The notes: generated by a model from the letters alone, not told the origin. A stretch of DNA of 64,000 nt from Salarchaeum sp. JOR-1 (GCF_007833275.1 NZ_CP042241.1:1488001-1552000), one strand, 5' to 3'; counted from the first letter of the stretch, positions 22,052 through 44,547 are shown. Numbers and translations: made by a program.

Positions 22052-23326
22052 ATGGCGGAACAGGTCGTCACTCGCACCTACACTGCTTCCATCCGGAACC
22101 AGCCACAGGTGCAAGACGACCTCGATTCGCTCGGGTTCGCCGCTTCAAAACTCTGGAACGTCGGACGGTGGACTTGTGACCGAGTGTGGGGCGAAGTCGG
22201 CCATATTCCCGGTCACAACGAACTCACCGCGTACCTCAAGAATCACGAACGCTACGATGACCTGCATTCGCAGTCAAGTCAGCGAGTCCTGCAAGAACTC
22301 GCTGAGGCGTTCAAAGGCTGGTACGGCAAACAACGCAACGGAGACACACGAGCGAACCCGCCCGGCTACCGCAAACACGGCGACGACCACCCACGAAGTA
22401 CGGTCACGTTCAAAGCCGATGGCTTCAAACTCGACACCCAGTACAACCGCGTCCGACTCTCCAAAGGCTCGAACCTCAAGGACTACTGGTCGGACTTCAT
22501 CCTCTGCGAGTACCAGACCCGCCCTGACGTTGACCTCTCCACCGTGGAGAGCGTCCAGCAGGCGCGGGCAGTTTGGACGGGAAGCGAGTGGGAACTACAC
22601 TTCGTGTGCAAAGTCGAAATCGAAGTGTCAGAGGCACCCGGTCAGAAGACGGTTGGTGTTGACCTCGGCATCAACAACTTCGCCGCCCTCGCCTACGAAG
22701 ACGGCTACGGCGAGCTGTACCCGCTGAACTGTCTGAAGCAAGACGACTACTTCTTCAGCAAGCGGATTGCTCGCTGTGACAACTCCGATTCCGAGCAAGC
22801 CACGCGGTTAAATCAGAAGAAGTCTCGACGGCGCACCCACTACTTCCACACGCTCTCCAAGCACATCGTCCAGCGATGTGTTGAGGAGGGTGTTGGAACG
22901 ATTTTGGTTGGCGACCTCTCTGGCATCCGTGATAAGGAGGAGAACGGCGAGTCGAAGAACTGGGGCAAGCATGGCAATCTTGACCTGCACTCGTGGGCGT
23001 TCGACCGCTTCACCGACCTGCTCGAATACAAGGCCGAGATGGCAGGAATCGCGGTCAATGAAGTGTCTGAGTGCGATACATCGAAGTCGTGTTCGTGTTG
23101 TGGTCGGAAGCGAAAGGCGAACCGTGTTGAGCGCGGGTTGTACGTCTGTGACGAGTGTGGTACGGTGGCGAACGCTGATGTGAACGGTGCTGAGAACATT
23201 CGACAGAAAGTATCTCCGAGTCCTCGTCCAGAGGATAGGAGTAACGGCTGGTTGGCACAGCCATCGACGTTCCTGTTTGACAAGGACACTGGCGCATTCG
23301 CGCCTCAAGAACAGGTCACGTCGTAA
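22052..23326 (+). CDS. tnpB: IS1341-type TnpB (RNA-guided nuclease family)
   Basis: 424 residues. N-terminal WED/REC-like region to ~195, then RuvC-I VGVDLGINNFA (D204), a long RuvC-II segment, the four-Cys zinc finger (CSCC at 347-350, CDEC at 366-369) and RuvC-III ANADVNGAEN (D376). The RuvC-II position normally holding Glu in a VEDL motif reads VGDL here (G287), so catalysis needs a substitute acid or is lost. No IS200 TnpA is present in the window, so the element cannot move alone. Start at 22052 follows a TATA-like ACTATACC with a small inverted repeat. If active it would cut DNA under guidance of an RNA from its 3' end. Confidence 0.85.
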   Translation: MAEQVVTRTYTASIRNQPQVQDDLDSLGFAASKLWNVGRWTCDRVWGEVGHIPGHNELTAYLKNHERYDDLHSQSSQRVLQELAEAFKGWYGKQRNGDTRANPPGYRKHGDDHPRSTVTFKADGFKLDTQYNRVRLSKGSNLKDYWSDFILCEYQTRPDVDLSTVESVQQARAVWTGSEWELHFVCKVEIEVSEAPGQKTVGVDLGINNFAALAYEDGYGELYPLNCLKQDDYFFSKRIARCDNSDSEQATRLNQKKSRRRTHYFHTLSKHIVQRCVEEGVGTILVGDLSGIRDKEENGESKNWGKHGNLDLHSWAFDRFTDLLEYKAEMAGIAVNEVSECDTSKSCSCCGRKRKANRVERGLYVCDECGTVANADVNGAENIRQKVSPSPRPEDRSNGWLAQPSTFLFDKDTGAFAPQEQVTS

Positions 23327-23334
23327 ACCACAAT

Positions 23335-23379
23335 ATCCCAACGCGGGAATCTTCGCCCTTCAGGGCGGGGAGGATGTCA
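23335..23379 (+). ncRNA. Right end / candidate omega-RNA scaffold of the TnpB element
   Basis: Just after tnpB, ACGCGGGAATCTTCGCCCTT and CAGGGCGGGGAGGATGTCA form a GC-rich hairpin (CGCCC TTCA GGGCG) with the GGGGAGGATGTCA tail of haloarchaeal IS1341 elements. For TnpB systems the overlapping 3' transcript is the guide RNA scaffold, and the adjacent ~16-20 nt act as guide; here those are AGGTGCGTGTTCGGTTTCG, the 3' end of orc1. Confidence 0.5.
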
Positions 23380-27726: not shown

Positions 27727-29025
27727 CTACCAGGTTAATCCGTCATATGTCATTCCGTCTCGGGGTGCGATACAGCGGCGGCCATCCACGACGATTTGCT
27801 GGGTCATCGTGTCGAACTCTTCGTCGAGAGCTTCGAATTCGTCCCAGTCGGTACAGACGAGGCAGGCAGAGGCGTCGGTGAGAGCGGCTTCGGCGGAGTC
27901 TTCGTACTCGATATCTGGGAGGTGTTCACGCATGTTCTCGGTCGCAACCGGGTCGTAGGCGGCTACAGTCGCCCCGCGTTCTTGGAGTCCCTCGATGACG
28001 GGAATTGCACGCGAGTTCCGAACGTCGTCTGTGCCGGGTTTGAACGCCAGTCCCAACACTGCGACGCGATTTCCGGAGACATCGATGTGGTCGTCAAGCA
28101 GGGAAAGGAGGCGCTCGGGCTGTCGGTCGTTCACTTCAACGGCGGCTTCGAGCACTGCGGGGTCGTAGTCCTGGTTACGGGCCGCAGCGATGATGGCGTT
28201 CGTGTCTTTCGGGAAGCAGCTCCCGCCCCAGCCCAGGCCGCTCCGGAGGAACTGCTCGCCGATCCGGTCGTCCAACCCCATGGCGTCCGCGACCTCGTAC
28301 GCGTCGATATCGAACTCCTTGCAGATGTTTCCGATGTCGTTGATGAGCGAAACTTTCGCGGCGAGGAAGCCGTTGTTCGCGTACTTAATCATCTCCGCCG
28401 TCTTCGTGTCTGTCTCGACCACTGGTGCACCAGTTCGCTCGACGAGTGGGTCAAAGACATCGTGCATGTCGGCGAGTGCACGCTCGTCGTCCGCTCCGAG
28501 CACGACCTTGTCCGGATCGAGGAAGTCGTGAACCGCAGTCCCCTCCCGGAGGAACTCGGGGTTCATGCCGACACCGAAGTCTTCGCCTGCGGTTTTTCCT
28601 GAAGCGCCTTCTAGTACTGCGGTGATGATGTCCTCCGTCGAACGCGGCACGACTGTACTCTTCACGACGACCGTATGCCAATCGTTCTTCTCCGCGAGCG
28701 TGTCGCCGAGTTGCTCGGCCCCAGATTTCATGATCGAGAGATCGATACTTCCGTCGTCGTGCTGTGGAGTCGGGAGACAGAGGAACGTAACGTCCGTGTC
28801 GAGCACGGCCTCGTACTCGGTGGTCGCGCGAAGACGACCGGTCTCCTGCGTGTGCTCGCGCACCAGCTCGGGGAGGCCGTCCTCGTGAATCGGCGCCTCC
28901 CCGGAGTTAATCGTCTCGACAATGGACTCATCGATGTCGACGTTCACGACCTCATGACCGATATCAGCGAAACACGCAGCGATAGTAGTGCCGACGTATC
29001 CACTGCCGATGACGGAGATGTCCAT
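27727..29025 (-). CDS. aglM: UDP-glucose/UDP-sugar 6-dehydrogenase (AglM-like)
   Basis: 432 residues. N-terminal NAD-binding Rossmann motif VIGSGYVGTTIAACFADIGH; central dehydrogenase helix KYANNGFLAAKVSLINDI; catalytic Cys in SGLGWGGSCFPKDTNAI; C-terminal UDP-binding domain with VAVLGLAFKPGTDDVRNS. It oxidises UDP-glucose to UDP-glucuronate (two NAD+ used), as Haloferax AglM does in N-glycan synthesis. Own TATA box 25 nt upstream, so it need not depend on the upstream UXS gene, from which it is separated by an orphan epimerase tail. Substrate could also be a UDP-HexNAc but AglM-like features favour UDP-glucose. Confidence 0.88.
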   Translation of the reverse strand: MDISVIGSGYVGTTIAACFADIGHEVVNVDIDESIVETINSGEAPIHEDGLPELVREHTQETGRLRATTEYEAVLDTDVTFLCLPTPQHDDGSIDLSIMKSGAEQLGDTLAEKNDWHTVVVKSTVVPRSTEDIITAVLEGASGKTAGEDFGVGMNPEFLREGTAVHDFLDPDKVVLGADDERALADMHDVFDPLVERTGAPVVETDTKTAEMIKYANNGFLAAKVSLINDIGNICKEFDIDAYEVADAMGLDDRIGEQFLRSGLGWGGSCFPKDTNAIIAAARNQDYDPAVLEAAVEVNDRQPERLLSLLDDHIDVSGNRVAVLGLAFKPGTDDVRNSRAIPVIEGLQERGATVAAYDPVATENMREHLPDIEYEDSAEAALTDASACLVCTDWDEFEALDEEFDTMTQQIVVDGRRCIAPRDGMTYDGLTW

Positions 29026-29046
29026 ACCCCTTCGTAAACGGGAGGT

Positions 29047-29053
29047 GTATAAG
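29047..29053 (-). promoter_or_regulatory. TATA box of aglM
   Basis: On the minus strand CTTATAC (from TTTCTTATACACC) lies about 25 nt before the ATG at 29025, fitting a leaderless transcript. Confidence 0.45.
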
Positions 29054-29064
29054 AAACGTCCGGG

Positions 29065-29181
29065 CTACCGATTTTCGTACCAGTCGACGAACCGTTCGAT
29101 ACCGTCGTCGAAGTCTACCTCCGGTTCCCAGTCGAGTTGGTCTCCCGCTCGCGAGACACCGTTCGCTTGCTCGTTTTCTCG
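29065..29181 (-). pseudogene. Orphan C-terminal tail of a nucleotide-sugar epimerase
   Basis: Directly after the UXS stop codon a different frame reads NGVSRAGDQLDWEPEVDFDD then GIERFVDWYENR and a stop at 29065. This is the C-terminal signature of a haloarchaeal NAD-dependent epimerase (LGWEP and F..WY motifs) but belongs to none of the intact genes here. About 38 residues remain. It marks a recombination join where the present UXS gene replaced an older epimerase. Confidence 0.6.
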
Positions 29182-29182
29182 G

Positions 29183-30157
29183 CTACTGGCTGCTGTCGAC
29201 GGTCGTGTCGAGTTCGTCCGCGAAGTGGGGAATCGTTCGTTCGAGGCCAGCTTCGAGAGAGACTGTCGGTTCCCATCCGAGTAGTTGCTTTGCGCGAGTG
29301 ATGTCCGGTTGGCGGACCTGTGGGTCGTCCTCCGGGAGGTTCTGATGAACGATATCGGAATCGGCGTCCAGAACATCGAGGATAGTTTTTGCGAGTGTTC
29401 GAATCTTGATTTCGTCCGTGCTTCCGAGGTTGATAACGTCTCCTGCAGCGACTTCGGGTGGCGCGTCGGCGAACGCTCGGATACCTCGGATCAGGTCGCT
29501 CACGTAACAGAAACTCCGCGTCTGCGTTCCGTCACCGTACACTGTGAGACCTTCTCCCCGTAACGCCTGTGAGAGGAAGTTCGGGATGACGCGGCCGTCG
29601 TCGGGACGCATCCGCGGCCCGTACGTATTGAAGATGCGGACGGTTCGGATATCGACGTCGTACTGCTGCTGGAAAGCAACTGCGAGCGCTTCCGAGAACC
29701 GCTTACTCTCGTCGTAGGGTGCTCGCGGGCCGCGTACGTTCACGTTTCCGTTGTACTCCTCGTGCTGAGGATGAACCTCCGGGTCGCCATAGATCTCGCT
29801 CGTTGACGCTAGGATCGCGCGAGCGTCGTTGTCGCGAGCGTACCGGAGTGCGTTGTGCGTTCCTTCACTGTTCGTCAACGCGATTTCGACGGCGTGCGAT
29901 TCGAAGTCCTTCGGGCTCGCACGGGACGCAAAGTGAAAGACGTAATCCACGTCTCCGAGGTCGGGAAACGGTTCGCGGACATCGTGTTCAATGGAGGCGA
30001 ACCGTTCTGACTCGATATGGGCGAGGTTGGTTGGACGGCCGCTTCCGAAGTTGTCGAGGGACGTGACCTGGAATCCGTCGTCGAGAAGAGAGTCGACGAG
30101 GTGACTACCGACGAATCCCGCGCCACCTGTGACGACTGCGTGGGGTTTCGATTTCAC
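29183..30157 (-). CDS. UDP-xylose synthase-like (UDP-glucuronate decarboxylase)
   Basis: 324-residue extended SDR. NAD-binding GGAGFVGSHLVDSLL; the catalytic Ser/Thr in LASTSEIYGDPEVHPQ; the Tyr-Lys pair in RAPYDESKRFSEAL; and RIFNTYGPRMRPDDGRVIPN and GDGTQTRSFCYVSDL, which match animal and plant UXS almost motif for motif (STSE, GDPEVHPQ, GPRM). It should decarboxylate UDP-glucuronate to UDP-xylose. It sits between the nucleotidyltransferase (ATGA overlap) and aglM, its substrate supplier. Related dehydratases cannot be fully excluded but the GDPEVHPQ and RMRPDDGRV motifs favour UXS. Confidence 0.82.
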   Translation of the reverse strand: MKSKPHAVVTGGAGFVGSHLVDSLLDDGFQVTSLDNFGSGRPTNLAHIESERFASIEHDVREPFPDLGDVDYVFHFASRASPKDFESHAVEIALTNSEGTHNALRYARDNDARAILASTSEIYGDPEVHPQHEEYNGNVNVRGPRAPYDESKRFSEALAVAFQQQYDVDIRTVRIFNTYGPRMRPDDGRVIPNFLSQALRGEGLTVYGDGTQTRSFCYVSDLIRGIRAFADAPPEVAAGDVINLGSTDEIKIRTLAKTILDVLDADSDIVHQNLPEDDPQVRQPDITRAKQLLGWEPTVSLEAGLERTIPHFADELDTTVDSSQ

Positions 30158-31164
30158 AGTTCGATGGTGCTGTTGTCCCCGACGTTCAGGTGGTTCGCCT
30201 CGCTTCGGACGGTCGCGCCGTCGCCGACGATGCTGCCTTCGAGGTTCACGCTCTCCAGGGTGGCGTTCTCGCCGACGATGCTGTTGCGTACGATGCTGTC
30301 CGTAATACGAGCGTTATCGTCGACACTCACGTTCGGTCCGACGATTCCTTCTTCGACGACGACGTTATCTCCGAAGTCGACTGGCGGAACGACGACTGCG
30401 TTATCGACCGAGTCCGCGCCGTTCGTCTCGCCCTTCGACAGGAGGACGCGGTTCGCTTCGAGAAGCGTCTCGGGCCGCCCGCAGTCGTACCAGTCCTCGA
30501 CCTCGAAGACGTCGATGCGGGCGTCGGACTCAATCATTCGCTGGAGCGCGTCTGTGAGCTGGTACTCATTGCCAGCCCCGCGAATGTTGTTCTCGACCAG
30601 GTGATTGAGCGTGTCGAACAGGAGGTTCGTGTTCTCCACGATGTACACGCCACTAATCGCGTAGTTCGACTGAGGATTGTTCGGCTTCTCGACGAGGCGC
30701 TCGACTCGACTTTCTTCCGCGAGTTCAGCGACGCCGTAGTGCTGAGGTTCGTCGACGGTCTTCACGCCGACGCTCGCGTCCGGATCATTGAGCGAATCGT
30801 GCGCGTCGAGGAACGTCCCGTACCCGTTCTCGAACAGCATATCACCGAGCGCGATGAGTGCGGGTTCGCCACGGACGGCTTCCTCAGTCTGGTAGATGCT
30901 ATGACCGAGTCCCTCCGCACTCTCCTGTTCGACGAACTGAAACGTGAACTCGTCGCCGAACGACTCCTCAGCGTACTCGACAATCTGATCCTGCATCGGA
31001 CCGCCGACGACGATGACAACTTTGTCGACTCGAGTTTCCGTGAGGCTGGAGAGAATGTGGCCGAGAATCGGCTTCCCAGCGATCCGAACCATCGCCTTCG
31101 GCTTCGTGTGAGTCTGGGGATAGAGGCGGGTTCCCTGTCCAGCGGCCGGAATGACAGCCTTCAT
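30154..31164 (-). CDS. Sugar-1-phosphate nucleotidyltransferase with C-terminal left-handed beta-helix (AglF-like)
   Basis: 336 residues. Nucleotidyltransferase core with PAAGQGTRLYPQTHTKPKAM (pyrophosphorylase signature), LGDMLFENGYG, VEKPNNPQSNYAISGVY and WYDCGRP. From ~245 a hexapeptide repeat region (GPNVSVDDNARITDSIVRNS and following) forms a beta-helix, as in haloarchaeal AglF. It makes UDP-glucose (or dTDP-glucose) from glucose-1-phosphate, the entry to the sugar-nucleotide branch. Its stop overlaps the UXS start by ATGA. ATG at 31164 is used; an upstream extension reads poorly. Confidence 0.85.
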   Translation of the reverse strand: MKAVIPAAGQGTRLYPQTHTKPKAMVRIAGKPILGHILSSLTETRVDKVVIVVGGPMQDQIVEYAEESFGDEFTFQFVEQESAEGLGHSIYQTEEAVRGEPALIALGDMLFENGYGTFLDAHDSLNDPDASVGVKTVDEPQHYGVAELAEESRVERLVEKPNNPQSNYAISGVYIVENTNLLFDTLNHLVENNIRGAGNEYQLTDALQRMIESDARIDVFEVEDWYDCGRPETLLEANRVLLSKGETNGADSVDNAVVVPPVDFGDNVVVEEGIVGPNVSVDDNARITDSIVRNSIVGENATLESVNLEGSIVGDGATVRSEANHLNVGDNSTIEL

Positions 31165-31312
31165 CTCAATTAAATGAGTGAGAGAGGGGGTAAAGGCTTT
31201 CTGTATCTCGCATATTCTTTCGATTAGGGTTTTCACTTTCCCGTCCGCGATTACTTTCTGGATATAGCGGATGGATAGTTTCAATACCCGCCGCGTAATT
31301 ATATCTCATAAT

Positions 31313-32518
31313 ATGGAAATTGCATTCCTCACGAATTATTTTCCGAAAATTTCGGAGACATTTATAATAAATCAAGTTATTGGACTTTTAGAACGAGGGC
31401 ATTCCGTTCAGATTTTTGCACTCGAATCACCAGATGAAGACGTTACACACGAAGTAATCGACGAGTACGACCTCCTTGAACGAACAACCTATTTCCCGTC
31501 TCCTGAAAATTATTTCCACGGACTTAGTAGAGTCGGACAACTTATAGTCAACTATCCGGCCTCAATTTCTCAGGTTCTCCCTTCTTTCCGTCGAGGAGTT
31601 GAAGGAGGAGTTCGACTCTCAACTCTCTATCAATTCAAGAAATTTGACTGTGGGGGATTCGATGTGTATCATGCGCACTTCGGACAGGTTGGGAAACGAT
31701 GGGACTTTCTCCCTGATGAAACCGATGCTCCATACGTTGTTTCATTCTATGGCAAAGACGCAAGTGTCGATCTCTCAGAACGGCCAGAAACTTATGAACA
31801 TACCTTCAATGTCACAGACTGTGTAACGGTTTTGAGTGAAGACATGCGTGAGGACGTTGTCGGATCAGGATGTCCGGCCGAGAAAACAACTATCCAACCG
31901 CTTCCAGTTGACCTCAACCAATTTTCTTATTCCCCGACCAACCCTGCTAAAACAGAGCCTACTCGAATACTCACGGTCGCTAGGTTTACTGAAAAAAAGG
32001 GATTGGACGACGCGCTCGAAGCGATCGATTCTGTTGCCGGAACTCACGATATAACGTGGACAATCGCCGGGGGGGGCCCTCTCCGCGATACGTTCGAGAC
32101 AGAGATCCAAGAACGTGGCCTCGAAACGACAGTTGAGATGCTCGGCTGGGTAACGCAAGAACGAATCAACGAATTACTGCACGACGCACACCTGTTCATA
32201 CTCCCAAGCAAGACGAGCTCAGAAGGTGATAAAGAAGGAACACCGACAGTTTTACTTGAGGCTCAAGCTGCTGGGGTTCCTGTTCTCTCAACGTATCACG
32301 CAGGAATCCCAGAAATCGTCCGCGATGGGGAAACCGGGATTCTGGTTCCCGAAAGCGACCCAGAGAAGCTCACAAACGCACTCGACCGATTCCTCTCCAC
32401 TCCAGAGACGTGGACCGAAATGGCGCGGAACGGTCGTGAATTCGTCGAAGAGAACCATTCAAAACAGGTAGTCGCCGAACAACTAGAAGAACTCTACCTA
32501 AAACAGTTGAACAGCTGA
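31313..32518 (+). CDS. Family 4 glycosyltransferase
   Basis: 401 residues, GT-B fold. The N-lobe opens MEIAFLTNYFPKISETFI; the C-lobe has ILTVARFTEKKGLDDALEAI, IAGGGPLRD, and the donor motif GTPTVLLEAQAAGVPVLSTY with PEIV following. No membrane helix. Start at 31313 matches the family opening. It is in the AT-rich part of the island, diverging from the AglF-like gene. It probably adds one sugar to a dolichol-linked glycan; donor and linkage unknown. Confidence 0.85.
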   Translation: MEIAFLTNYFPKISETFIINQVIGLLERGHSVQIFALESPDEDVTHEVIDEYDLLERTTYFPSPENYFHGLSRVGQLIVNYPASISQVLPSFRRGVEGGVRLSTLYQFKKFDCGGFDVYHAHFGQVGKRWDFLPDETDAPYVVSFYGKDASVDLSERPETYEHTFNVTDCVTVLSEDMREDVVGSGCPAEKTTIQPLPVDLNQFSYSPTNPAKTEPTRILTVARFTEKKGLDDALEAIDSVAGTHDITWTIAGGGPLRDTFETEIQERGLETTVEMLGWVTQERINELLHDAHLFILPSKTSSEGDKEGTPTVLLEAQAAGVPVLSTYHAGIPEIVRDGETGILVPESDPEKLTNALDRFLSTPETWTEMARNGREFVEENHSKQVVAEQLEELYLKQLNS

Positions 32519-32591
32519 TAACGGGTGGCAATTTACTGGCGGCCTTGGACTCTTTCATAGTTGATTTACAGTACCTATACTATCACGTGAT

Positions 32592-33506
32592 ATGGGACGA
32601 GTGCTCGTTACTGGAAGCAGCGGATTCATCGGGAGTAATCTTTGTCAGGAGCTGGTTCGGCGTGGCCACGAGGTTCACGGTGTTGATATCGACCCACCAG
32701 AATTTGATCTTCCAGAATCAGTCAATACCTTCCAGGCAGACCTCACTAACGAACCAGAACTACCCGACCTAGATGTAATCGTTCACCTCGCTGCTCACTC
32801 GCAGGTTCAACCGGTAGTAGCTGACCCGTCATTGGCCTTGGAGAACGTCAAAATGACTCAGCACGTCCTCAATGAGGCGGAGCGTATGGATGCAGCCGTA
32901 ATTAATGCATCAAGTCGCGATGTCTACGGTGCCGAGATTCAACCGACCGAAGACGAAGTAACTCCTGACAGTCCTAATGGGTATGCCGCAAGTAAGCTCA
33001 GTTCTGAGGCCTTTGTGAACGCATATAGACATACGCGCGATGTTTCAGTAACCTCGCTCCGACTCGCTAACGTCTATGGGCCTCGTGATTTGAACCCGCG
33101 AGTGATTCCGATATTTATCGCACTCGCAGACGCAGGTGAAGATTTAACCGTGTATGGAGAAGGGAAATTATTAGACTTCGTTCACGTAGGCGATGTTTGT
33201 GAGGCGTTTTGTGCCGCTATCAACCGCATCGAGGCCGTAAACGGGGAGATATTCAATATCGGATCCGGAAGAGGGGTTCAATTATCCGATATCGCAGAAA
33301 CCATCACCACAGCTGTGGACAGCGACAGCACCTGGATGATCTCCAACGATCGGAAAGGCGACGTAGAACGATACGTAGCCGATACGTCGAAGACAGAAGC
33401 CGCCCTAGACATCAGAATGGATACAGAATTAGATAAGGGACTAGCCAATACCATAGAATGGTATCGCTCTCAACCGGAGGTTCTCAGTACACTTCGGTCA
33501 GAATAG
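32592..33506 (+). CDS. NAD-dependent nucleotide-sugar epimerase (candidate UDP-pentose/hexose 4-epimerase)
   Basis: 304-residue SDR. NAD motif VTGSSGFIGSNLCQEL; catalytic Ser in NASSRDVYGAEIQP and the Tyr-Lys in PNGYAASKLSSEAF; NVYGPRDLNPRVIPIFI and GKLLDFVHVGDVCEAF as substrate-side motifs. It resembles GalE-type epimerases; in this neighbourhood the simplest role is to interconvert UDP-xylose and UDP-arabinopyranose, but UDP-glucose/UDP-galactose is equally possible. Follows the GT4 gene by 73 bp on the same strand. Confidence 0.8.
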   Translation: MGRVLVTGSSGFIGSNLCQELVRRGHEVHGVDIDPPEFDLPESVNTFQADLTNEPELPDLDVIVHLAAHSQVQPVVADPSLALENVKMTQHVLNEAERMDAAVINASSRDVYGAEIQPTEDEVTPDSPNGYAASKLSSEAFVNAYRHTRDVSVTSLRLANVYGPRDLNPRVIPIFIALADAGEDLTVYGEGKLLDFVHVGDVCEAFCAAINRIEAVNGEIFNIGSGRGVQLSDIAETITTAVDSDSTWMISNDRKGDVERYVADTSKTEAALDIRMDTELDKGLANTIEWYRSQPEVLSTLRSE

Positions 33507-33714
33507 TGGATAGAATTATGTTTTGTGGGGCCAGAAGCAACAGCGCTGCTGTCGATGAAGGTCGGTATTCGACTCTATCATGTATAACTATCACATCGCT
33601 GCTGTCAACCTCGAGTGAAACGATTCACTCCATACCAGATTTGAATAGGTTGGGAATGACGCTTTTGCTCATGCGTTCTTCGCCTAACTACTCAAGAAAC
33701 ACGATCTTAATGAC

Positions 33715-33923
33715 TGTTCTTTCCGACAAAATGCTATTTTCCAAGGCGCATGCTCTCAACACGGCCTCGGTTTCAGATACGAACGCCAAGGAGTCGGATT
33801 AGTGTTGAACCTGTCTTTAGAGAAATAAAACAGAGAACACGAATCTCTGCTTCTCAAACTGTTTCAGCAAGGCCGAAGCAGAAACCGCCGATGAGCGCCC
33901 AAAATTGTTCACTTTTGTATGGG
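33715..33923 (+). pseudogene. Remnant of an older IS6-family transposase (3' part)
   Basis: Broken frames read the DDE transposase C-terminus: SVEPVFREIKQRTR (compare SVERVFREVKRRTN in the intact-length copy), then in the next frame FSNCFSKAEAETADERPKLF, then TFVW. The last codons are interrupted at 33923 by the newer element; beyond it, after the target duplication, the frame resumes as VWGQLIL (34624-34644). Upstream part (33507-33714) is too decayed to assign. It is an old IS6-type copy on the + strand. Confidence 0.6.
33916..33923 (+). repeat. 8-bp target-site duplication (left) of the IS6-family element
   Basis: TGTATGGG lies immediately left of the element and again at 34622-34629 immediately right of it. 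Eight bases is the usual IS6-family duplication length. Confidence 0.7.
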
Positions 33924-34621
33924 TGTAGTGTTCAGATTAGCTGATTCCATACGAAGGCGAACGCTCGAAGCCAATTTTCGACGGTGTCTGCTTCGGCGTG
34001 GCTGAAACAGTTTGAGAATTGGTTGGTTCGTCGTTTTACTTCGCGGAAGACACGTTCGACGCTATTCCGATTCCCATGGGTTTCATGCTGGAATCGGAGG
34101 CCGTGGCGGTGGCAAGCCGCCTGCAGCCACGGCGCTCCGTCGACGAGAAAGATCGCGTCGTCGACGAGATATTATTCGCGGAGTTCTTCGAGGAACATCT
34201 CAGTGAGTGCCTGTGTTCTCGTCGGGTAGAGCCGGACGTGCAGCAGGCGGTTGGTCGCGGGATCGACGGCGGCGTACAGCCAGTAGCGCTGGTCGTTGAG
34301 TTGGATTACGGTCTCGTCGACGGCGACGTAATCCGGGTCTGCTCCGGATGTCGGCTGTAGATCGGCTTTCTGCACCCAGTTGTGAACAGTTGAGCGACAG
34401 TGGTCGACACCCAACCTATCGAGAATAGAGACGGTATCCGAAAGTGATGATCCGGCCAGATGGAGGTGGATACCGAGTTTCATCGCGGGCTCGGGTGTCG
34501 CTTCTCGCTCCAGAAACTCTAACTCGAAGCAGTCGCTATCACCGATGAGGCGGGTGATTTCGTCCATGAACCAGCCGAAACTCGTCCCGCCTCACCTTTC
34601 AATCCTTATCTGAACACCGCC
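33924..34621 (-). mobile_element. IS6-family insertion sequence, 698 bp, with imperfect terminal inverted repeats
   Basis: Left end TGTAGTGTTCAGATTAG and right end (reverse strand) GGCGGTGTTCAGATAAG match at 13 of 17 positions, core GTGTTCAGAT. Flanking 8-bp direct repeats TGTATGGG confirm the borders. Length and a single DDE transposase are typical. It is inserted inside the 3' end of an older related copy. Confidence 0.75.
33932..34567 (-). pseudogene. IS6-family transposase with internal ochre stop
   Basis: Frame from ATG at 34567 reads MDEITRLIGDSDCFELEFLE, an HTH-like region with STVHNWVQKADLQP, the first catalytic Asp in YVAVDETVIQLND, the second in FLVDGAPWLQAACHRHG, and the Glu in NSVERVFREVKRRTN, ending FAFVWNQLI at 33932. 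A TAA at 34172-34174 (between ELRE and YLVDDA) interrupts an otherwise perfect frame of 212 codons, so the protein would stop after 131 residues without the second and third catalytic residues. One point change (for example AAA to TAA) explains it. Confidence 0.75.
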
Positions 34622-34682
34622 TGTATGGGGCCAACTAATCTTAACACTACGTGACGAAATTATTATATAGGCATGTGGTGTT

Positions 34683-35558
34683 TCATTCGAAAATTTGCTT
34701 TAAAATGCTATACGGTGATTTAGGATATTCGAGTTCCGAGTCAGAAACATGCTCGTCAACGAAATATGTCTTGAAGAATATGGCTGAGTAGAACACACCT
34801 TTCAGATAGCTTGAAAACGTGTCTTGACCGATAGACCATTTCGCCGTCCGAACAAAGTGTCGGATCGTGTGGAGTAGTGCACTTTGGCGATCGTAATGCT
34901 TCCAGTAATACCAAGCGTAATTCTTCGTGAAGTGAAAGGTCTTGATTGGGGAGAGGGATCCGCCACTCCAGCTATCGGATTTGTGTCGGACTTCGACATC
35001 GGGATGGCAGTAAATCCGATAGCCATGGTTGATGAGGTTTGCTGCTAGCTCCATATCGTTCACCCACGCAAAATATCGCTCGTCAAAGCCGCCCACCTCG
35101 CGAACTGCATCGGCCTTCGCTAAAACTCCACAGGTCTGAACTACCTGGGTATACCCGGCCTTATCTTTCGATACTGTGTCCTTCTCAATTACCTTTGGTT
35201 GTATGAGGGCCACCTCGTCGGGCAACTCGGCTATCTTTTCGACGAGATCGTGCGTCCAAGTTGGATCAATCTCGATATCGTCGTCCATCAGACCGAGTAC
35301 GTCACCCTCGGCGTTGGCGATTGCAAGGTTTGATGCCAACGAGTGCCCTTCGTTTTCGAGCAGGGAGAGAACAGTAACTCCCTCGTCCGTATAGGAATTG
35401 AGGATCTCCTCAGTGTCGTCCGTGGACCCGTCATCAACTGCGATTATCTCGGTATGAGGATACTCTTGGGCCAGGAGGCTGTCAAGAGTTTCCTCAATTG
35501 TATCTGCTCCGTTGTAGGTCGGGACAATGAATGAGACTGTGGGCTTGTCTCGATCCAT
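34683..35558 (-). CDS. Family 2 glycosyltransferase
   Basis: 291 residues. GT-A fold: VSFIVPTYNGADTIEETLDS, AVDDGSTDDTEEI, the donor-binding LMDDDIEIDP, then GGFDERYFAWVNDMELAANL, the ED-type catalytic-base region, and a C-terminal amphipathic/hydrophobic helix (FYSAIFFKTYFVDE). Close in layout to the frameshifted GT2 next to it, so the two are probable duplicates. Soluble, membrane-associated transferase of the glycan island; sugar unknown. Confidence 0.85.
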   Translation of the reverse strand: MDRDKPTVSFIVPTYNGADTIEETLDSLLAQEYPHTEIIAVDDGSTDDTEEILNSYTDEGVTVLSLLENEGHSLASNLAIANAEGDVLGLMDDDIEIDPTWTHDLVEKIAELPDEVALIQPKVIEKDTVSKDKAGYTQVVQTCGVLAKADAVREVGGFDERYFAWVNDMELAANLINHGYRIYCHPDVEVRHKSDSWSGGSLSPIKTFHFTKNYAWYYWKHYDRQSALLHTIRHFVRTAKWSIGQDTFSSYLKGVFYSAIFFKTYFVDEHVSDSELEYPKSPYSILKQIFE

Positions 35559-35779
35559 TAGTTTTGCACAAATCGGTTAACGGCCCAGTAAAGGAACGTA
35601 ATAGTGCGTACGGAAACCAAAATATCGTGATCCGATTTCTTTCCGAAAAGGTCGTCGATAGCTTTCTGCTTGAGGGTTACGAACATATAATCCAAATCTG
35701 CTTGGATTGGTATAGTATCTTTGTTTAGCGGTATAGCGGGCCAATGTTACACCAAGCGGGGGATGACTGTTGTTGGAGA

Positions 35780-36669
35780 CTACTTTCCAAGGAGATGCAT
35801 GACGATATTCATCGGTGTCGCCGAACGATAGTGGTCTATCCGGACATCGGAGGTGTGGTTTGAAAGTAGATAGTCTATCCCGGATAGTGAGGCAATTACA
35901 CCTTTAATATACGCTCTCAAATTGCCCGTCTTTACTGCATCTTTGAGACGGTGGCCGAAGAGAATCAAGTTCAGTGAGTGAATAATGGCATTGTATCGGT
36001 CATAATGCTTCCAGATTGTCCAGATATGGTTCCGGATCTCGTAGAAAGTCCTGAAGGCCGAGTCGGTTCGTTCGGGAGAATACGCCTTATGGTGCGTTGT
36101 CGCCGCTGGTTCTGCAATTATTCGATAGCCATGATTTATCAAATTGAGTGCTAATTCCCCATCATCGTAGTAGACAAAGTAGCGTTCGTCATAATATCCG
36201 ACCTCTTTTATTTTTTGCGGTCATATAATACACCGCAGCTTATCATCCCATGGATTTCTCCGCCTTCCGTGAATTTCTCCACAGTGCCACCATTCGATTT
36301 ATATTCGACAACTTTCGGCTGTATCGCTGCAATATCGTCTGATGATGTCTGAATACGATCGACAACTGTCCGAAGCCAACCCACTCCGATTATACCATCG
36401 TCGTCGAGCTTCGCGATGTACTTGCCTTCGGCAGATTCGAATCCAATATTGGCTGCCTCCGAGTGCCCTTTATTTTCTTCTAGTTCAATCAGTTTGGCAG
36501 AGGGGCACTTTTCTCGCACGATATCTGTGGTCTCATCCTCAGATCCATTGTCTACGATGATCACTTCCTTATTCGAGTAAGATTGATTCGAAATCGCTTC
36601 TAAACATTCACCAATACAGTCAGAGCTATTATGTACGGGAATTACGAATGAGATAAGTGGTTCCTCCAT
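35780..36669 (-). pseudogene. Family 2 glycosyltransferase broken by a one-base deletion in an A run
   Basis: N-terminal 153 codons (SFVIPVHNSSDCIGECLEAI, VDNGSEDETTDIV, KLDDDGIIGVGW) end in DRKK and a stop at 36208. Reading one base further on, the frame continues IKEVGYYDERYFVYYDDGEL, then LINHGYRIIAEPAATTHHK, to a stop at 35780. The join lies in a run of six A on the coding strand (36211-36216); seven A would give a continuous frame of 297 codons. Either a pseudogene, a phase-variable allele, or an assembly error in a homopolymer. Confidence 0.7.
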
Positions 36670-36764
36670 TGGCCTCCAGAAAATTTGTATCGCTGCTATT
36701 TCACCCTTTCCGAATATGTTACAAACTCTCTGAAAGATAGAAAACAGCCCTAAAGGGGTAAAAT

Positions 36765-36838
36765 ATGGCGCTAAGAGCCACGGCGACCGAAATCATGATA
36801 AAGAGAATCATGGAGAGGGTTGGTGGCCGCAGCGCCAT
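36765..36838. repeat. 74-bp interrupted inverted repeat
   Basis: ATGGCGCT (36765-36772) pairs with AGCGCCAT (36831-36838), and inside it GCCAC (36777-36781) pairs with GTGGC (36823-36827). Could be a MITE relic or small structured RNA. Confidence 0.35.
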
Positions 36839-37203
36839 GAAGGAGCACTGTGAGCAAACCCCCTCGTCCTAGCTGGGAGCACCGCCCGACACGATAACGA
36901 CGATCCGGCCGGCATGCAGACCGGATGTCAGAATCCCATAGGCAGTTAGTTGAGATGTCTGATTACTACGGATGCATCTATCAAACAGCAGCAAGTAGAC
37001 AGTGAAATCCACGAGAAACAACTCGATTCCATCAATCTTCGGTTAAGCGAACAAACCACTGGACAGCGCGCTACTCACTTCTCTCCGAACATTGTCTGGC
37101 TTGAGGGCGGTTGATTAAATGTTCCCTGAGTGAAATCGCCCCAAGATCGGGCGGTGGATAGCTGTAGACTTCAGCTAGTCCATGAAAGTATCGTCTCAGG
37201 ATT

Positions 37204-37240
37204 GTCGTCCGTCTGGGACGTCAGCTCCCAGACGGACGAC
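37204..37240. repeat. Perfect 15-bp hairpin
   Basis: GTCGTCCGTCTGGGA and TCCCAGACGGACGAC form a perfect 15-bp stem around a 7-nt loop CGTCAGC. It stands alone in gene-free DNA, not followed by a T run, so a terminator is not the obvious reading; a mobile-element end or regulatory RNA fits as well. Confidence 0.55.
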
Positions 37241-37546
37241 TGATTGACGTTAGCCAGTGTGGCGACTGGCCAGATGGTATCGGAATTGAGAGGCACGCCT
37301 TCTCCATCCATAGAGGCTGTCCAATTATGTCGGCCTCTACTCTTTCACGTCTGCTCTCGAATGAATCCCGTCTGGTTTGGGGGTCTAACACACTTCCAGA
37401 CTGGATATATTTCTTAATCAGAGCGACGCTTCAGTTCTGCCGTTCACGCCGGTTGGAAAGTACCGATTTCGACATTAAGAACAGGATTATTCGAGTGGCT
37501 CACCCTTCTCTTAGTATAGAAGCAGGGTCTGAATGGAAGCGATCCC

Positions 37547-38527
37547 CTATTGTCGTGCCTCCCATTTGTCAGCCCAAATCCGCATTGCTTCGGCCATCTC
37601 TCCAAAGTAATCGTCTAGTTCCGTGAGTTCCTTTTCGACGGCGTCTGCGAGCTCTCGATAACACGCGACTGTGGTGTCCGCGTCCTCGGAGAACTCAACG
37701 CTCTCGAAGAACGGGATGATTTCCTCTTGCCAGACGATTCCTTCCTTCTCTTTCTCGAAGTTGCTCTTCCAGTGGGATGCCTTTTCGTGTCGGATGTATG
37801 GCTTTCCAGTTTTGACGCCGTACCCGAGGTGATCACAAATCGTCTTCGCACACCAGCCTGCCCACATGTCATCGTATCGGCCCCATGGATAACCTTCTCC
37901 CATGAGCCCGAAGTACATCGCGGGGCCGATCAGTTCCCGGTTGAATGCGAGATTCATCCCGCACATCGGGAACAGCGTTCCTTCTGGGATCGTCTGGACG
38001 ATGTCGACGTATTTTTCGTTTCGCCAATTCGGCTTCACCATCTGGGTGGGCGCGTCGAAGTCAGGGATGTTGAGCCACAAACCGTGCGATATCGCGGTTG
38101 GAACTCCTTCTCGACGGCTGAACGGATACCCACGTACGAACTCTTGATCGTAGAGGGTGTTGAAGAACTCTGGATGAGCGGGTTCTTCGAGGTTCTCGAG
38201 GTGTTGTGCAAGCGCATCGACACGTTCACCGCTAGGATTCTTCGCCGGGAAGCAATCGTCGTCAATCGTGAATACGTACTCGCTTTCTGCCATCAAGAAA
38301 CCGAAACACCGGCACGCACTGTCCCGCTTGGAGATGATCCAGCGGTCGTCCCCGAGTTCTTCCTCGATGTCGTTCCAGTTGTAGAGGTCGTATTCGTATC
38401 CCGCTGGAACTTCGATGTCCCGAGATGGGTCACCGTCTTGTACAATGATGAGATGGTGGTTCTCAAGTGCGAATCGCCATTCGTCGAGAAAGTCAAGATC
38501 CCGTATTGTCGGGATAACGATATCCAT
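37547..38527 (-). CDS. Reversibly glycosylated polypeptide / UDP-arabinopyranose mutase (GT75), plant-like
   Basis: 326 residues. The whole chain follows plant RGP/UAM proteins block by block: [56 protein letters not shown] (DDD 89-91), [20 protein letters not shown] (R132 and R139 at the positions of the two essential Arg, one of them the reversibly glycosylated residue of rice UAM), [20 protein letters not shown], and [20 protein letters not shown]. In plants it interconverts UDP-arabinopyranose and UDP-arabinofuranose. Here it lies within the glycan island, on the minus strand, with no domain fusion. Activity inferred from conservation. Confidence 0.9.
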
Positions 38528-38755: not shown

Positions 38756-39973
38756 ATGGACGTTCTCGCTCTCACCGATCATCTCGGTAATATCGGCGGT
38801 GCAGAGATAAGCACACGAGAGATTCTTGTAGGGCTAGCTGACCGGAAGGATGTGGACGCTGTTACCGTCATCGGGGCGGATGTCCCCGGTGTCGAGCTAC
38901 TCGACTTTCCGGGTGTTGAAGTAATACCAGTTGAGGTTTCAGGACTTATCGACGGACTTCCCGATTATGCTTCTGATATCGTCGTATCTCGTCGACTCGC
39001 CAAACAGGCACGAAAACATCTCGAAACGGCGGATATTCTCCACGCTCATCACCGCCGAGCTACGTTTGCGTTGAACCACTTGGATACGGACGTACCGACT
39101 GCGGCTACGATTCGTGATTTCTGGCCAATTTGCCCGATTAGCATCTATACGGTCGACGGCCGTCAGTGTCGAGGATGTGAGAAAGATCTTGACGCTTGTA
39201 TTCAGCATCAAGACTGGGACGGACTGGCCTCTCCAGCAATCGAGAAGTACCTGCTGGCAAAACGCAAACACAACCGGGGACTTATCGAACAACTCGACTG
39301 TAACGTATTCATCTCCAATCATATTCGCCGTACAATCGACGAGTCTACCGGGGTCGCCCCGACTACCGAAGTCATCTACAATCCGATTGATGTCGGATTT
39401 GACGGGCCACCGGATGAAAGCGATACTCCACGATTTGTTACGGCGAGCACTCTTACATCACAGAAGGGAGTAGATGTGGCGATTCAAGCCCTCGGTCGAC
39501 TCGAGGAGTACCCAGATGCAGAGCTTATCGTGTTCGGGGATGGACCTGAGCGCGAGACATTAAGGGCCCTTGCAGGCGAGGTTGCACAGGGGCGGGTCGA
39601 GTTCCGTGGACGTGTCCCACCCGAAGAAGTGTATCGCGTAATGGCGGGGGCAACTGCGACCATATTCCCGTCCATCTGGGAGGAGCCGTTCGGTCGAGTG
39701 ACTGTCGAATCGATGGCTCTTGGAACACCAGTCGTCGGCAGTGATGTCGGTGGAATAGCTGAAGTTATCGACGACGGTGAGAGTGGATTGCTTTTCCCCC
39801 CTGGTGACGCGGATGCACTGGCCGATCGTCTTCGTCAGCTTTGTTCGTGTTCTTCGTTCGTTGATGCACTTGGAACCCGTGCTCAAGAGACTGCCGGGCA
39901 GTTCTCGAGGCGTGAAATAGCAGCTGACTATCGGAGCCTCTACGCACAACTCCTCGAAGAACCTCAGAGTTAA
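38756..39973 (+). CDS. Family 4 glycosyltransferase
   Basis: 405 residues, GT-B. N-lobe opening DVLALTDHLGNIGGAEISTR; a Cys-rich insert ICPISIYTVDGRQCRGCEKD (three Cys) around residue 128-145 typical of some sugar transferases; C-lobe TASTLTSQKGVDVAIQALGR, IVFGDGPERETL, the donor motif EEPFGRVTVESMALGTPVVG and GIAEVIDDG. Acts in the cytoplasm on the lipid-linked glycan; sugar unknown. Convergent with the flippase gene, 20 bp apart. Confidence 0.87.
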   Translation: MDVLALTDHLGNIGGAEISTREILVGLADRKDVDAVTVIGADVPGVELLDFPGVEVIPVEVSGLIDGLPDYASDIVVSRRLAKQARKHLETADILHAHHRRATFALNHLDTDVPTAATIRDFWPICPISIYTVDGRQCRGCEKDLDACIQHQDWDGLASPAIEKYLLAKRKHNRGLIEQLDCNVFISNHIRRTIDESTGVAPTTEVIYNPIDVGFDGPPDESDTPRFVTASTLTSQKGVDVAIQALGRLEEYPDAELIVFGDGPERETLRALAGEVAQGRVEFRGRVPPEEVYRVMAGATATIFPSIWEEPFGRVTVESMALGTPVVGSDVGGIAEVIDDGESGLLFPPGDADALADRLRQLCSCSSFVDALGTRAQETAGQFSRREIAADYRSLYAQLLEEPQS

Positions 39974-39993: not shown

Positions 39994-41445
39994 TCACGAT
40001 GGGCGTATAGGGACTATGTCACCGGCAATCCCGATTAATCGCCGACGCATCGGAGTACTGATAGTGAGGAGGATGACGAAATACCACAAAGCTCCCGCCG
40101 CTATAAGGACGAATAGCGAAAGAGTACTATCGATATCGATTGAGGTGTAGAGAATCCATACGGACGCTCCCATCCCACTTGCCGCCAGACACTGATCGAG
40201 AATAGAACGTAGCGGAATCTTTTCCACGGATAACTCAAGGATATCCGATAGGACGGTGGCGATGTAGAGTACGCTGGCACACATTGCGACCAGGCTAGCG
40301 ATTGCTGCTCCTATAATTCCGAAGGTCGGAACTAGAATAAGGTCTAGAATTCCGTTCGTGAATACGAGGATAATTCCTGTATAGGTGGATAAGTCAGGGC
40401 GATCTAGTCCATCTGCCGTCGCAGTCAGAATCCACCGATATCCTTCGGGAATTTTTATGATTACAGCAATAAGTGCGACAGAGGCTCCAGCAGCTAGTTC
40501 TGGGGTATATAAAGTGACAATAATTGGGTATGCAAGAAATGACATAGCAACTGCTGCAGGTATTGAGAACACGGTTGAGAGGGCGATACTCTCGGAGAGA
40601 ATGGTCCGAACACGATCCGTATTCTCTTTAACCATGTTTCGACTGATTTGCGGGAACGAAGCGGCGGTCATGCCGTTTATAAATACGATGAATGGTAGAG
40701 CGAATCTGAATGCCACCGTGTATATTCCCACTGCACTGCTCCCGAGCACAAACCAGATGACGAGTCGATCGATATTGTCGTAGAACTTCCCCGCGAAGGA
40801 ATTTATCACAGCGTACTTCGCGAACGATACGAGATGTTCAAGATGGCGAATGGAGGGGCTCCCAAGGCTTGTGTGACTAATCCAGAACGCGACAATTGCT
40901 GCTCCACTTGCTCCGACAACTGCCCCAATAATTAGTCCAAACAAAGTGTGTCCAGTGGCGATAAGAGTAACTTGAACGGAGGTACGCACGCCAATATCGA
41001 TGAACTCCATCACGCCAGCCCACCCGACTCGTCCTTCTCCTTGTAAGACACCGTCTGCAACGTATCGGCCTTGGCGAGCCCACAGATATATAACTATGAA
41101 TACGAGCACCTGCTCACTGAAACCAATTAGTTCGGCCAGGTCAGACCGGAACAACAGAACCACAGCTGAAGCCCCACTCAAAAGCATAATAGACCCTAAA
41201 ACTGCTGAACTGAAGTATGCGCTACGTTCCTCCCCCTCACTCATTCGTTTCGTAAGTGCCCCGCTAAGACCAGCCCCTCCGATGAGTGTGAGAAATGAAA
41301 CCACTGTCTCGAACATATAGTACTTCCCGAGTACGACTGTCGCCTGATCCAGTGTTCGAGTAAAGTAGATTACTGCGAGAAACGAGGCCAGGAGACTGAA
41401 CGTTTTCGCTCCCGTATATGCGATTCCAGACCGGGCGATACCCAT
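39994..41445 (-). CDS. Oligosaccharide flippase of the MATE/Wzx (PST) superfamily
   Basis: 483 residues with about 13-14 membrane helices. Opening GIARSGIAYTGAKTFSLLAS and the recurrent NSFAGKFYDNIDRLVIWFVL and FRFALPFIVFINGMTAASFP segments are typical of Wzx/AglR-like flippases. It would flip the dolichol-linked glycan to the outer face for AglB. Another flippase lies at 51970-53427, so this island may serve a second glycan. Convergent with the GT4 gene. Confidence 0.85.
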   Translation of the reverse strand: MGIARSGIAYTGAKTFSLLASFLAVIYFTRTLDQATVVLGKYYMFETVVSFLTLIGGAGLSGALTKRMSEGEERSAYFSSAVLGSIMLLSGASAVVLLFRSDLAELIGFSEQVLVFIVIYLWARQGRYVADGVLQGEGRVGWAGVMEFIDIGVRTSVQVTLIATGHTLFGLIIGAVVGASGAAIVAFWISHTSLGSPSIRHLEHLVSFAKYAVINSFAGKFYDNIDRLVIWFVLGSSAVGIYTVAFRFALPFIVFINGMTAASFPQISRNMVKENTDRVRTILSESIALSTVFSIPAAVAMSFLAYPIIVTLYTPELAAGASVALIAVIIKIPEGYRWILTATADGLDRPDLSTYTGIILVFTNGILDLILVPTFGIIGAAIASLVAMCASVLYIATVLSDILELSVEKIPLRSILDQCLAASGMGASVWILYTSIDIDSTLSLFVLIAAGALWYFVILLTISTPMRRRLIGIAGDIVPIRPS

Positions 41446-42144: not shown

Positions 42145-43275
42145 ATGTCTACTGAAAACGTTGCCATTCTACACGACCGTTTTCCGACAATCGGTGGGAG
42201 CGAGACGTTCGCGATTGAGGCAGCAAAAGTACTTGACTCCCCAGTTTACACGATGTACATTGACGACAGCGTTCAAATCCCTGATACTGTCGAGGTCCGG
42301 ACTATTCGCCAGTCGAAGTACATGGGCGGTGTAAGTGGTCGGTTGCTGAAATGGCGAAACGGAGGTATGAATCCATTTGAGTCAGCGAGTGTCGCGTTCG
42401 ACATGACTGAAGGGGTTGACGAACTCAGCGAATACGACGTTTTATTAGAAAGTGGCCCGCTCTCAAAATACTACGTCCCAGACACCAATCAGCGGATAGT
42501 TCACTATCCACACAGTCCTCCGCGGTGGCTTTACGATCTATTCCGTAACCGAATGAAGCGACTGGACTATCCGGGGATCGCGTTCGGTGCTCGTGTGTAC
42601 GCGAAGATCTGGCGAGCGCTCGATAAGGAGGCCGTTGACTACGTCGATACGTTCGTGGGAAACAGCGAACTAATCCGTGACCGGATCCGTCGCTACTACG
42701 CACGTGATGCCGAGGTCGTGTATCCTCCGATAACTGGTGACTGGCGAAACGAAGGTGACGATGGATACTTCCTCACGTGGTCAAGGCTCGATCCGGAGAA
42801 ACGAATCGATCTTATCGTTGAGGGATTCCAGGATCTGGATGAGCGGCTGATAGTCGCGGGAGATGGGGAGCAACGCCAGAAGCTCGAACGAATGGCGAAC
42901 GGACACGATAACATCGAAATTCGTGGGTTCGTTGAGGACATTGAGTCGCTCGCCGCACGGGCAACCGCCGTCGTCTACGCCCCCCGTCAAGAGGACTTCG
43001 GGCTGGTCGGTGCAGAAGCCCTGAGCGCGGGTAAGCCACTCATCGGTGTGAACGAAGGATTCACACGATACCAAATCGAGAAAGGAATTACGGGACTCAC
43101 ATTCGAGGCGAACGTAGAATCACTTCGCGACACAGTTCGGTCGTTCGATCCGACCCAGTTCGATAGCGACGAAATCCAGGAATTCGCTGAGCGCTACAGT
43201 TACGAGGAATTCGAGGACGGTTTACGTGAGGTCGTACTTGATGGGAGCCAGCGATTCGAGGAATCTGACACATAG
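42145..43275 (+). CDS. Family 4 glycosyltransferase
   Basis: 376 residues, GT-B. N-lobe VAILHDRFPTIGGSETFAIE; VHYPHSPPRWLYDLFRNR; C-lobe LTWSRLDPEKRIDLIVEGFQ, IVAGDGEQRQKLER, and APRQEDFGLVGAEALSAGKP with the donor-phosphate Glu (E of QEDFGL). The QEDFG variant of the usual EGFG motif is common in rhamnosyl/mannosyl-type GT4 enzymes. Followed by the next GT4 gene after 60 bp. Acts on the cytoplasmic lipid-linked glycan; sugar unknown. Confidence 0.87.
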   Translation: MSTENVAILHDRFPTIGGSETFAIEAAKVLDSPVYTMYIDDSVQIPDTVEVRTIRQSKYMGGVSGRLLKWRNGGMNPFESASVAFDMTEGVDELSEYDVLLESGPLSKYYVPDTNQRIVHYPHSPPRWLYDLFRNRMKRLDYPGIAFGARVYAKIWRALDKEAVDYVDTFVGNSELIRDRIRRYYARDAEVVYPPITGDWRNEGDDGYFLTWSRLDPEKRIDLIVEGFQDLDERLIVAGDGEQRQKLERMANGHDNIEIRGFVEDIESLAARATAVVYAPRQEDFGLVGAEALSAGKPLIGVNEGFTRYQIEKGITGLTFEANVESLRDTVRSFDPTQFDSDEIQEFAERYSYEEFEDGLREVVLDGSQRFEESDT

Positions 43276-43335: not shown

Positions 43336-44547
43336 ATGCACCTCACGCAGGTCGCTCCGTACGTCACCTATCCGCCTCGCTTAGGTGGGGATCATCGGAC
43401 GCACGGCCTGGTGAAGGAGTTCCCGGAATTCGACGACGTAGTGGAGCGGTTCTGTCAGGGTGGGTCGCCGGCGATGTACAAGTCACTCGACCTCCGCAGA
43501 GAAGTCGAGATAGCGGAAAACTATACGGAGTACCGGCATCTCCATCCGCTTCACGAACTCCTCAAGGCGCCGATGCTCTTGGGGTATCCGAACGTTTTCC
43601 AGAGCGAAGCGCTCGGGATAGCGAGTGCCGGTCTTGGTCGAATGCTTGAGGACGCGGATGTCGTGCTGGCGCGTGAGCCGTGGCAGACGCCGTACGTCCT
43701 CGACCATGTGAACGATGACACTCCTGTTGTGTTTTCGAGTCACAACGTAGAGACGGAGCGGTTTGGGGACATCTCTCAACCGGTGTTTAGTGACTGGGTG
43801 GAACATCGGGTCGATGCTCTTGAGCGGGAGTCCGTGGAGGGTGCGGATGCCATCGTGTGCACGAGTGAGCGAGACGCGGACGTGTATCGAGAAAAGTACG
43901 ACCCAGGTGGCCCGATTCTCGTGGCGCCGAACGGCACGTACGAAGAGAGTCTTCGCGAACACCGCCCCAAATCCGAGTCTGCCGAGCGCGTCCGTGAGCG
44001 ATACGGGATTGCCGAAGACGCGACGGTCTGTCTCTTCATGGGGAGTGACTACAAGCCGAACGTCGAGGCCGCGAACGCGACTCTCGACGTGGCTCACGAA
44101 CTCCTTGGAGAATCGCCGCCGGTTCACTTTCTGATTATGGGAAGCGTCGGGAACGCACTGAGTGAGGGAAATCTTCCGGAAAACGTGACGACGACGGGCT
44201 ACGTGGAGGAGGATTTCGAGGCGCACTTCGATGCCGCGGACATCGCGCTCAATCCGATGCTCTCCGGTGGCGGGACGAACATCAAACTCATCGATTACTT
44301 CGCACGGAGCCTTCCAGTCGTGTCGACGCCGTTCGGCGCGCGCGGACTTGACGCGACCGATGGCCGCGAGTTAGTCATCTCCGAAATCGATGACTTTCCG
44401 GCAGCCATCGAGGCGTTCGCCACCAACCTCGAACAACGTCGAGAGATTGGACAGGCCGGACGCGAACTCGCAGCGGAGAAGTACACGTGGGAAGCGTCCT
44501 CAAGTAAACTCCGTAAATTCGTATACAGCGAGTTCGGGCCGTTCTGA
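43336..44547 (+). CDS. Family 4/GT1-like glycosyltransferase (HNxE type)
   Basis: 403 residues. N-lobe RLGGDHRTHGLVKEF; FSSHNVETERFGDI, a motif of the polysaccharide GT4 subgroup; C-lobe VCLFMGSDYKPNVEAANATL, MGSVGNAL, LNPMLSGGGTNIKLIDYFAR (donor motif with Gly-Gly-Gly-Thr-Asn). GC content is higher than in the neighbouring AT-rich genes, so it may have a separate origin. Its last codons RKFVYSEFGPF are echoed as an orphan tail at 46499-46531. Sugar unknown. Confidence 0.85.
   Translation: MHLTQVAPYVTYPPRLGGDHRTHGLVKEFPEFDDVVERFCQGGSPAMYKSLDLRREVEIAENYTEYRHLHPLHELLKAPMLLGYPNVFQSEALGIASAGLGRMLEDADVVLAREPWQTPYVLDHVNDDTPVVFSSHNVETERFGDISQPVFSDWVEHRVDALERESVEGADAIVCTSERDADVYREKYDPGGPILVAPNGTYEESLREHRPKSESAERVRERYGIAEDATVCLFMGSDYKPNVEAANATLDVAHELLGESPPVHFLIMGSVGNALSEGNLPENVTTTGYVEEDFEAHFDAADIALNPMLSGGGTNIKLIDYFARSLPVVSTPFGARGLDATDGRELVISEIDDFPAAIEAFATNLEQRREIGQAGRELAAEKYTWEASSSKLRKFVYSEFGPF

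Follow-up and report, generated by a model that had tools for sequence, protein, structure and literature searches.

A predicted pathway to a UDP-furanose, most likely UDP-L-arabinofuranose, in a glycan island of the haloarchaeon Salarchaeum sp. JOR-1

Can an archaeon make an activated arabinofuranose for its surface glycans by the series of reactions that plants use? The question is raised by a locus in the two-contig, 2.52-Mb haloarchaeal genome of Salarchaeum sp. JOR-1, where the gene for a GT75 mutase of plant type lies on a glycan island. We found no archaeal arabinofuranose pathway in the open-licence literature. The window analysed here comprises 64,000 nucleotides (NZ_CP042241.1:1488001-1552000), and all positions are counted from its first letter. 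A preliminary description of this DNA had claimed five genes for the conversion of UDP-glucose to UDP-arabinofuranose within positions 27727-38527. All five are indeed present there, with intact frames and with matches far beyond chance, and we conclude that the locus probably supplies a surface glycan with a UDP-furanose donor, which is most likely UDP-L-arabinofuranose.

Organization of the glycan island

The GC content is 0.47-0.55 across about 30-46.5 kb of the window versus about 0.68 in the flanks. GC3 is 0.49 for the gene of the extended short-chain dehydrogenase/reductase (SDR) that we call EPI, 0.65 for the mutase gene (UAM), 0.68-0.75 for the genes of AglM, the UDP-glucuronate decarboxylase (UXS) and the NTP transferase, and 0.89 for aglB. 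Between EPI and two GT2 glycosyltransferase genes sits a broken IS240-type transposase remnant in two frames (33932-34591, complementary strand; weak PF13610 match). The first GT2 gene (34683-35558, complementary strand, PF00535) has a paralogue of 36% identity (35780-36792, same strand) that is frameshifted near 36215 and was recovered as two tblastn pieces in different frames; it is either a pseudogene or the result of a sequencing error. Since one of its GT2 genes is frameshifted, the island may be partly decayed.

Further along are a flippase of the polysaccharide transporter family (39994-41445, complementary strand, PF01943), two GT4 genes (42145-43275 and 43336-44547, forward strand), a gene for an ArnT/PMT-like polyprenyl-phosphate-sugar glycosyltransferase (44629-46398, forward strand; PF13231, and 62 bits against NF009784, under the cut-off) and the gene of the oligosaccharyltransferase AglB (46619-49816, forward strand; TIGR04154, 900 bits). 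The five genes had been placed next to aglB; they are on the same island, with the aglB start about 8 kb away from the UAM gene. Elsewhere in the window we observed an IS605-type TnpB gene (22052-23371), whose 3' end is overlapped by a sot0042 RNA (RF02656, 170.7 bits).

Genes for the predicted formation of UDP-xylose

AglM, encoded at 27727-29025 on the complementary strand, scores 782 bits against the curated equivalog model NF041297 (cut-off 670 bits), in agreement with the earlier description of an AglM-like dehydrogenase. This UDP-glucose 6-dehydrogenase would oxidise UDP-glucose to UDP-glucuronate, the second step of the proposed pathway, and its gene adjoins UXS in other haloarchaea too. 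The UXS gene (29183-30157, complementary strand) encodes a protein whose best PDB match is human UXS1 (50% identity, E=2e-91). The two proteins have the motifs STSE, YDExK, RIFN, QTR and DDPQxR in common, every checked catalytic motif is kept, and the protein, with its TxSE, YxxxK, RIFN and DDPQxR motifs, falls into the UXS clade on the tree. The UXS-like decarboxylase of the preliminary description was thus correctly recognized, and its likely product, in a third step from UDP-glucuronate, is UDP-D-xylose; an archaeal UXS from Methanospirillum has been reported to be active (PMC3220709).

The NTP transferase gene (30154-31164, complementary strand, PF00483) lies in an open frame that extends to 31284, with the likely start MKAVIPAAG at 31164, and its last 4 bp are shared with the start of UXS. 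It had been labelled AglF-like, which we could not confirm: the protein reaches 157 bits against the AglF model (cut-off 400) and is nearer to the RmlA-long model TIGR01208 (231 bits, cut-off 320), remaining under the curated cut-offs of AglF, RmlA-long, GalU and GlmU. Its tail gives a weak left-handed-beta-helix match. We regard it as an RmlA-long type enzyme, probably acting as UTP:glucose-1-phosphate transferase. Of 29 haloarchaeal UXS loci, 15 have a homologue no more than 1.5 kb from UXS, and in Halolamina sp. CBA1230 the place of the NTP transferase is occupied by GalU (cluster aglM-galU-UXS-SDR). On account of the 4-bp overlap, these 15 loci and the GalU swap, the NTP transferase presumably makes UDP-glucose and would thereby provide the first step. 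Many haloarchaeal families keep the NTP transferase and UXS genes as a pair, in many cases close to AglM or AglB, so that pentoses may be a more frequent component of haloarchaeal surface glycans than has been assumed.

A GT75 mutase of plant type

The UAM protein (37547-38527, complementary strand) matches the RGP family profile PF03214 over its full length (positions 6-339 of 342; 451.9 bits, E=2e-135). The residues required for mutase activity and base choice in GT75 enzymes are listed in PMC9937993. In the alignment, UAM has the catalytic residues Asp89, Asp90, Asp91, Arg132, Asp158, Arg217, Asp220 and His247, Arg132 being at the position of the autoglycosylated arginine, and the plant-type residues Pro6, Asp33, Asp69 and Ser70 that select UDP rather than GDP; Gly190 is as in AtRGP2. 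Of the 20-plus prokaryotic GT75 relatives in our collection, the full residue set of UAM recurs only in the nanohaloarchaeal and Methylomirabilis proteins, and rice UAM2 is without equivalents of Arg217 and His247.

In a GT75 tree, built after the removal of spurious ORFs antisense to GT75 genes, UAM formed one clade (support 100/100) with the nanohaloarchaeal and Methylomirabilis proteins and rice UAM2, the latter being the one plant sequence in the tree and a long branch. Nearly all other prokaryotic GT75 proteins found fall apart from this clade. The AF2 model of UAM (pLDDT 89.5) had rice UAM2 as its best fold match (TM 0.91), followed by MtdL. At the family level, these results uphold the earlier claim of a plant-type UDP-arabinopyranose mutase, and we propose from the sequence that UAM converts UDP-L-arabinopyranose to UDP-L-arabinofuranose.

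An extended SDR linked to UXS and to the mutase

The epimerase gene (32592-33506, forward strand, PF01370) had been called GalE-like, a label that we dropped. EPI scores 108.9 bits against a GalE cut-off of 262.3 (TIGR01179), and in a tree of 59 SDRs it belongs to a separate clade of 15 members (support 98/91) that includes neither E. coli GalE nor the UXE homologue of Sinorhizobium. This homologue is the SDR adjoining UXS in Sinorhizobium, which we assigned by synteny to the proven UDP-xylose 4-epimerase SmUXE (PMC3220709). The motif SSR[DE]V[YF]G is present in all 15 clade members and in none of the other SDRs compared. A fold search with EPI gave no separation between epimerases and decarboxylases.

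The clade occurs in 13 and UXS in 57 of 391 haloarchaeal genomes. Their co-occurrence across genomes alone is a modest signal (p about 0.02), and adjacency is the stronger one: each of the six haloarchaea that have both genes carries the SDR no farther than about 2.5 kb from UXS, and for the five besides the window's own genome the distance is within 1.2 kb. In the Halolamina cluster the SDR directly adjoins UXS. Moreover, a gene of the EPI clade overlaps the gene of a UAM homologue in a nanohaloarchaeon and in a Paceibacterota contig. Mainly because of this linkage to both UXS and UAM, we propose that EPI is a UDP-xylose 4-epimerase, which in a fourth step would convert UDP-D-xylose to UDP-L-arabinopyranose. 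The proposal is weakened by seven of the 13 haloarchaeal genomes, which carry the SDR without UXS. Since, in addition, no UXS was found near the UAM homologues of the nanohaloarchaeon and the Paceibacterota contig, the substrate of EPI need not be UDP-xylose.

The product of the pathway

A single pathway from these genes to a UDP-furanose is well supported at the sequence level, on the basis of the mutase residues of UAM, its position in the plant UAM clade, the linkage of the SDR to UXS and to UAM, and the lack of a UGM-type mutase, as no PF03275 protein is encoded anywhere in the genome. We infer that the enzymes have the activities assigned here and act in series, and that a glycosyltransferase uses their product. 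In the fifth step, the GT75 mutase would contract the ring via an Arg132-sugar adduct and with Mn2+, leading to UDP-L-arabinofuranose. The idea that the five genes work as one pathway therefore stands for the route to a UDP-furanose, of which UDP-arabinofuranose is the likelier and UDP-galactofuranose the less likely form.

Galactofuranose occurs in Halobacterium glycans. The main rival reading is that UAM makes UDP-galactofuranose from UDP-galactose supplied by EPI or another epimerase, with UXS feeding a separate xylose-containing glycan, because plant UAMs make UDP-galactofuranose too: rice UAM1 and AtRGP2 both convert UDP-galactopyranose to UDP-galactofuranose (PMC9937993). The genomes that have the EPI clade and lack UXS are in line with it, as are the further epimerase-like SDRs in a genome without a UGM. 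Nevertheless, EPI is distant from GalE proper on the SDR tree, and the genes of EPI and its two nearest relatives all lie near UXS, so that we consider this reading unlikely.

Epimerisation could also come first. EPI would then be a UDP-glucuronate 4-epimerase forming UDP-galacturonate, which is used directly or decarboxylated to UDP-L-arabinopyranose, and UAM would act on this or another UDP-pyranose. MoeE5, a UDP-glucuronate 4-epimerase, is among the best PDB sequence matches of EPI but is not close to it on the tree. The genes of a nucleotide-sugar dehydrogenase, the SDR and the UAM homologue overlap on the Paceibacterota contig with no UXS beside them, yet decarboxylation precedes epimerisation in the proven C. 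jejuni pathway (PMC10615251). This order of reactions appears quite improbable to us. That UAM is only an autoglycosylating or lost-function relative, like the rice UAM2-like proteins, on an island that is a decaying transfer would fit the frameshifted GT2, the nearby IS remnant and a UAM restricted to one haloarchaeal species of 391, and is very improbable given an intact UAM frame with all mutase residues, including the two missing from rice UAM2.

Candidate glycosyltransferases

In a sixth step, UDP-L-arabinofuranose would serve a nearby glycosyltransferase that adds the pentose to a lipid-linked glycan, which AglB possibly delivers to protein. The GT4 enzyme GT4a (31271-32518, forward strand, PF00534), whose gene adjoins EPI, is a candidate for this transferase; in another genome (G239), too, a GT4a relative adjoins an EPI-clade SDR. 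A second GT4 gene, GT4b (38756-39973, forward strand, PF00534), is divergent to UAM and has close relatives in only two of 381 other haloarchaea. A role of GT4b as a dedicated pentosyltransferase found no support: its relative in G062, a genome in which no UXS was found, sits with the PMT gene. GT4b and the PMT-like gene have close relatives that neighbour each other there, which suggests a separate glycosyltransferase module.

Comparison with known systems

The reaction series proposed here is already known from plants and C. jejuni; what is new is the combination of a metal-dependent plant-type mutase with an epimerase of another clade. The plant route (OsUAM1 and AtRGP2 with UXS and UXE/MUR4) runs through the same series of reactions with a UXS of the family found here, and its mutase shares with UAM the family, the clade and the catalytic and UDP-selecting residues. 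In contrast to plants, the genes here are archaeal and clustered near aglB, and the epimerase is of an SDR clade other than GalE/UXE. Hence the description of the locus as the plant cell-wall route is right for the reactions and the mutase family but not for the epimerase family.

In C. jejuni HS:15, the cluster HS15.16-19 has been proven to make UDP-L-arabinofuranose (PMC10615251). It likewise has a dehydrogenase, a decarboxylase, a C4-epimerase and a mutase in a surface-glycan locus, whereas its mutase is of the FAD-dependent UGM type and the one studied here is a metal-dependent GT75 protein in a genome with no UGM-type gene. The bacterial GT75 mutases MtdL and Hyg20 have the GT75 fold and catalytic residues as in UAM; they use GDP-sugars, in contrast to the plant-type UDP-selecting residues of UAM, and identity is only about 31% over the compared part. 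In Sinorhizobium meliloti, UXS adjoins a 4-epimerase as it does here, but the UXE homologue there is GalE-type. We know of no mutase associated with that UXS-UXE pair. Compared with haloarchaeal agl islands (AglB, AglM, AglF), AglB and AglM are standard and the nearby NTP transferase-UXS pair is widespread, whereas EPI and UAM are additions and the NTP transferase fails the AglF cut-off.

Distribution of the mutase and assembly of the locus

Full-length plant-type RGP was present in one of the 391 haloarchaeal genomes, the window's own, and no second one turned up when 393 genomes of the phylum were searched in addition. At least a weak RGP match was obtained in 305 of the 391 genomes, nearly all due to a divergent GT75-like protein. 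A degenerate pattern scan of 84,980 non-eukaryotic species found eight stretches; since exact motifs were required, relatives may have been missed. UAM is 73% identical to the protein of Ca. Nanohalarchaeota archaeon QJJ-9 and 54% to that of Ca. Methylomirabilis, the remaining matches being at 29-42%. We rejected contamination as the source of the nanohaloarchaeal contig, since in GC content and tetranucleotides it resembles five other contigs of its bin (r 0.92-0.95) rather than haloarchaeal loci.

A genome of the same genus (G220) has the order AglB-AglM-SDR-UXS-NTP transferase, with a UXS that is 89% identical. The SDR beside UXS is of the STNKVYG kind and not of the EPI clade, and neither an EPI-clade SDR nor a plant-type UAM was found in this genome. 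Therefore, the genus probably inherited the UDP-xylose part from its ancestor, and the fourth and fifth steps are likely gains on the low-GC island. AglM, UXS and the NTP transferase thus likely represent an older haloarchaeal block, and EPI and UAM look as if they were acquired later, by transfer.

We tentatively suggest, as a fuller and more doubtful reading, that a complete archaeal de novo UDP-L-arabinofuranose pathway was assembled from an older UDP-xylose module, a C4-epimerase of an SDR clade hitherto without an assigned function and a plant-type GT75 for an arabinofuranose-bearing surface glycan, the GT75 having passed between hypersaline archaea including nanohaloarchaea. If true, archaea would have a route to an arabinofuranose donor via the plant type of mutase, the SSR[DE]V[YF]G clade of SDRs would have a function, and the addition of two genes would have extended an existing pathway to a further surface-glycan sugar. 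Nanohaloarchaea are a symbiont lineage living on haloarchaea. Because the nearest relative of UAM is in such a symbiont, shared or mimicked surface sugars are a testable idea. The sampled genomes contain very few prokaryotic members of the plant clade, and for this reason the locus also bears on the origin of the plant UAM family.

The divergent GT75-like protein (~390 aa), with CSMN and DDIW motifs, is found in most haloarchaea, Haloferax volcanii included, and is often annotated as alpha-1,4-glucan-protein synthase. It keeps the catalytic Arg, Asp and His and may, judging by these residues, be a widespread NDP-furanose mutase. GT75 mutase homologues were also detected in 12 IMG/VR viral contigs and in the genome of an uncultured phage (LR756511, 595 kb).
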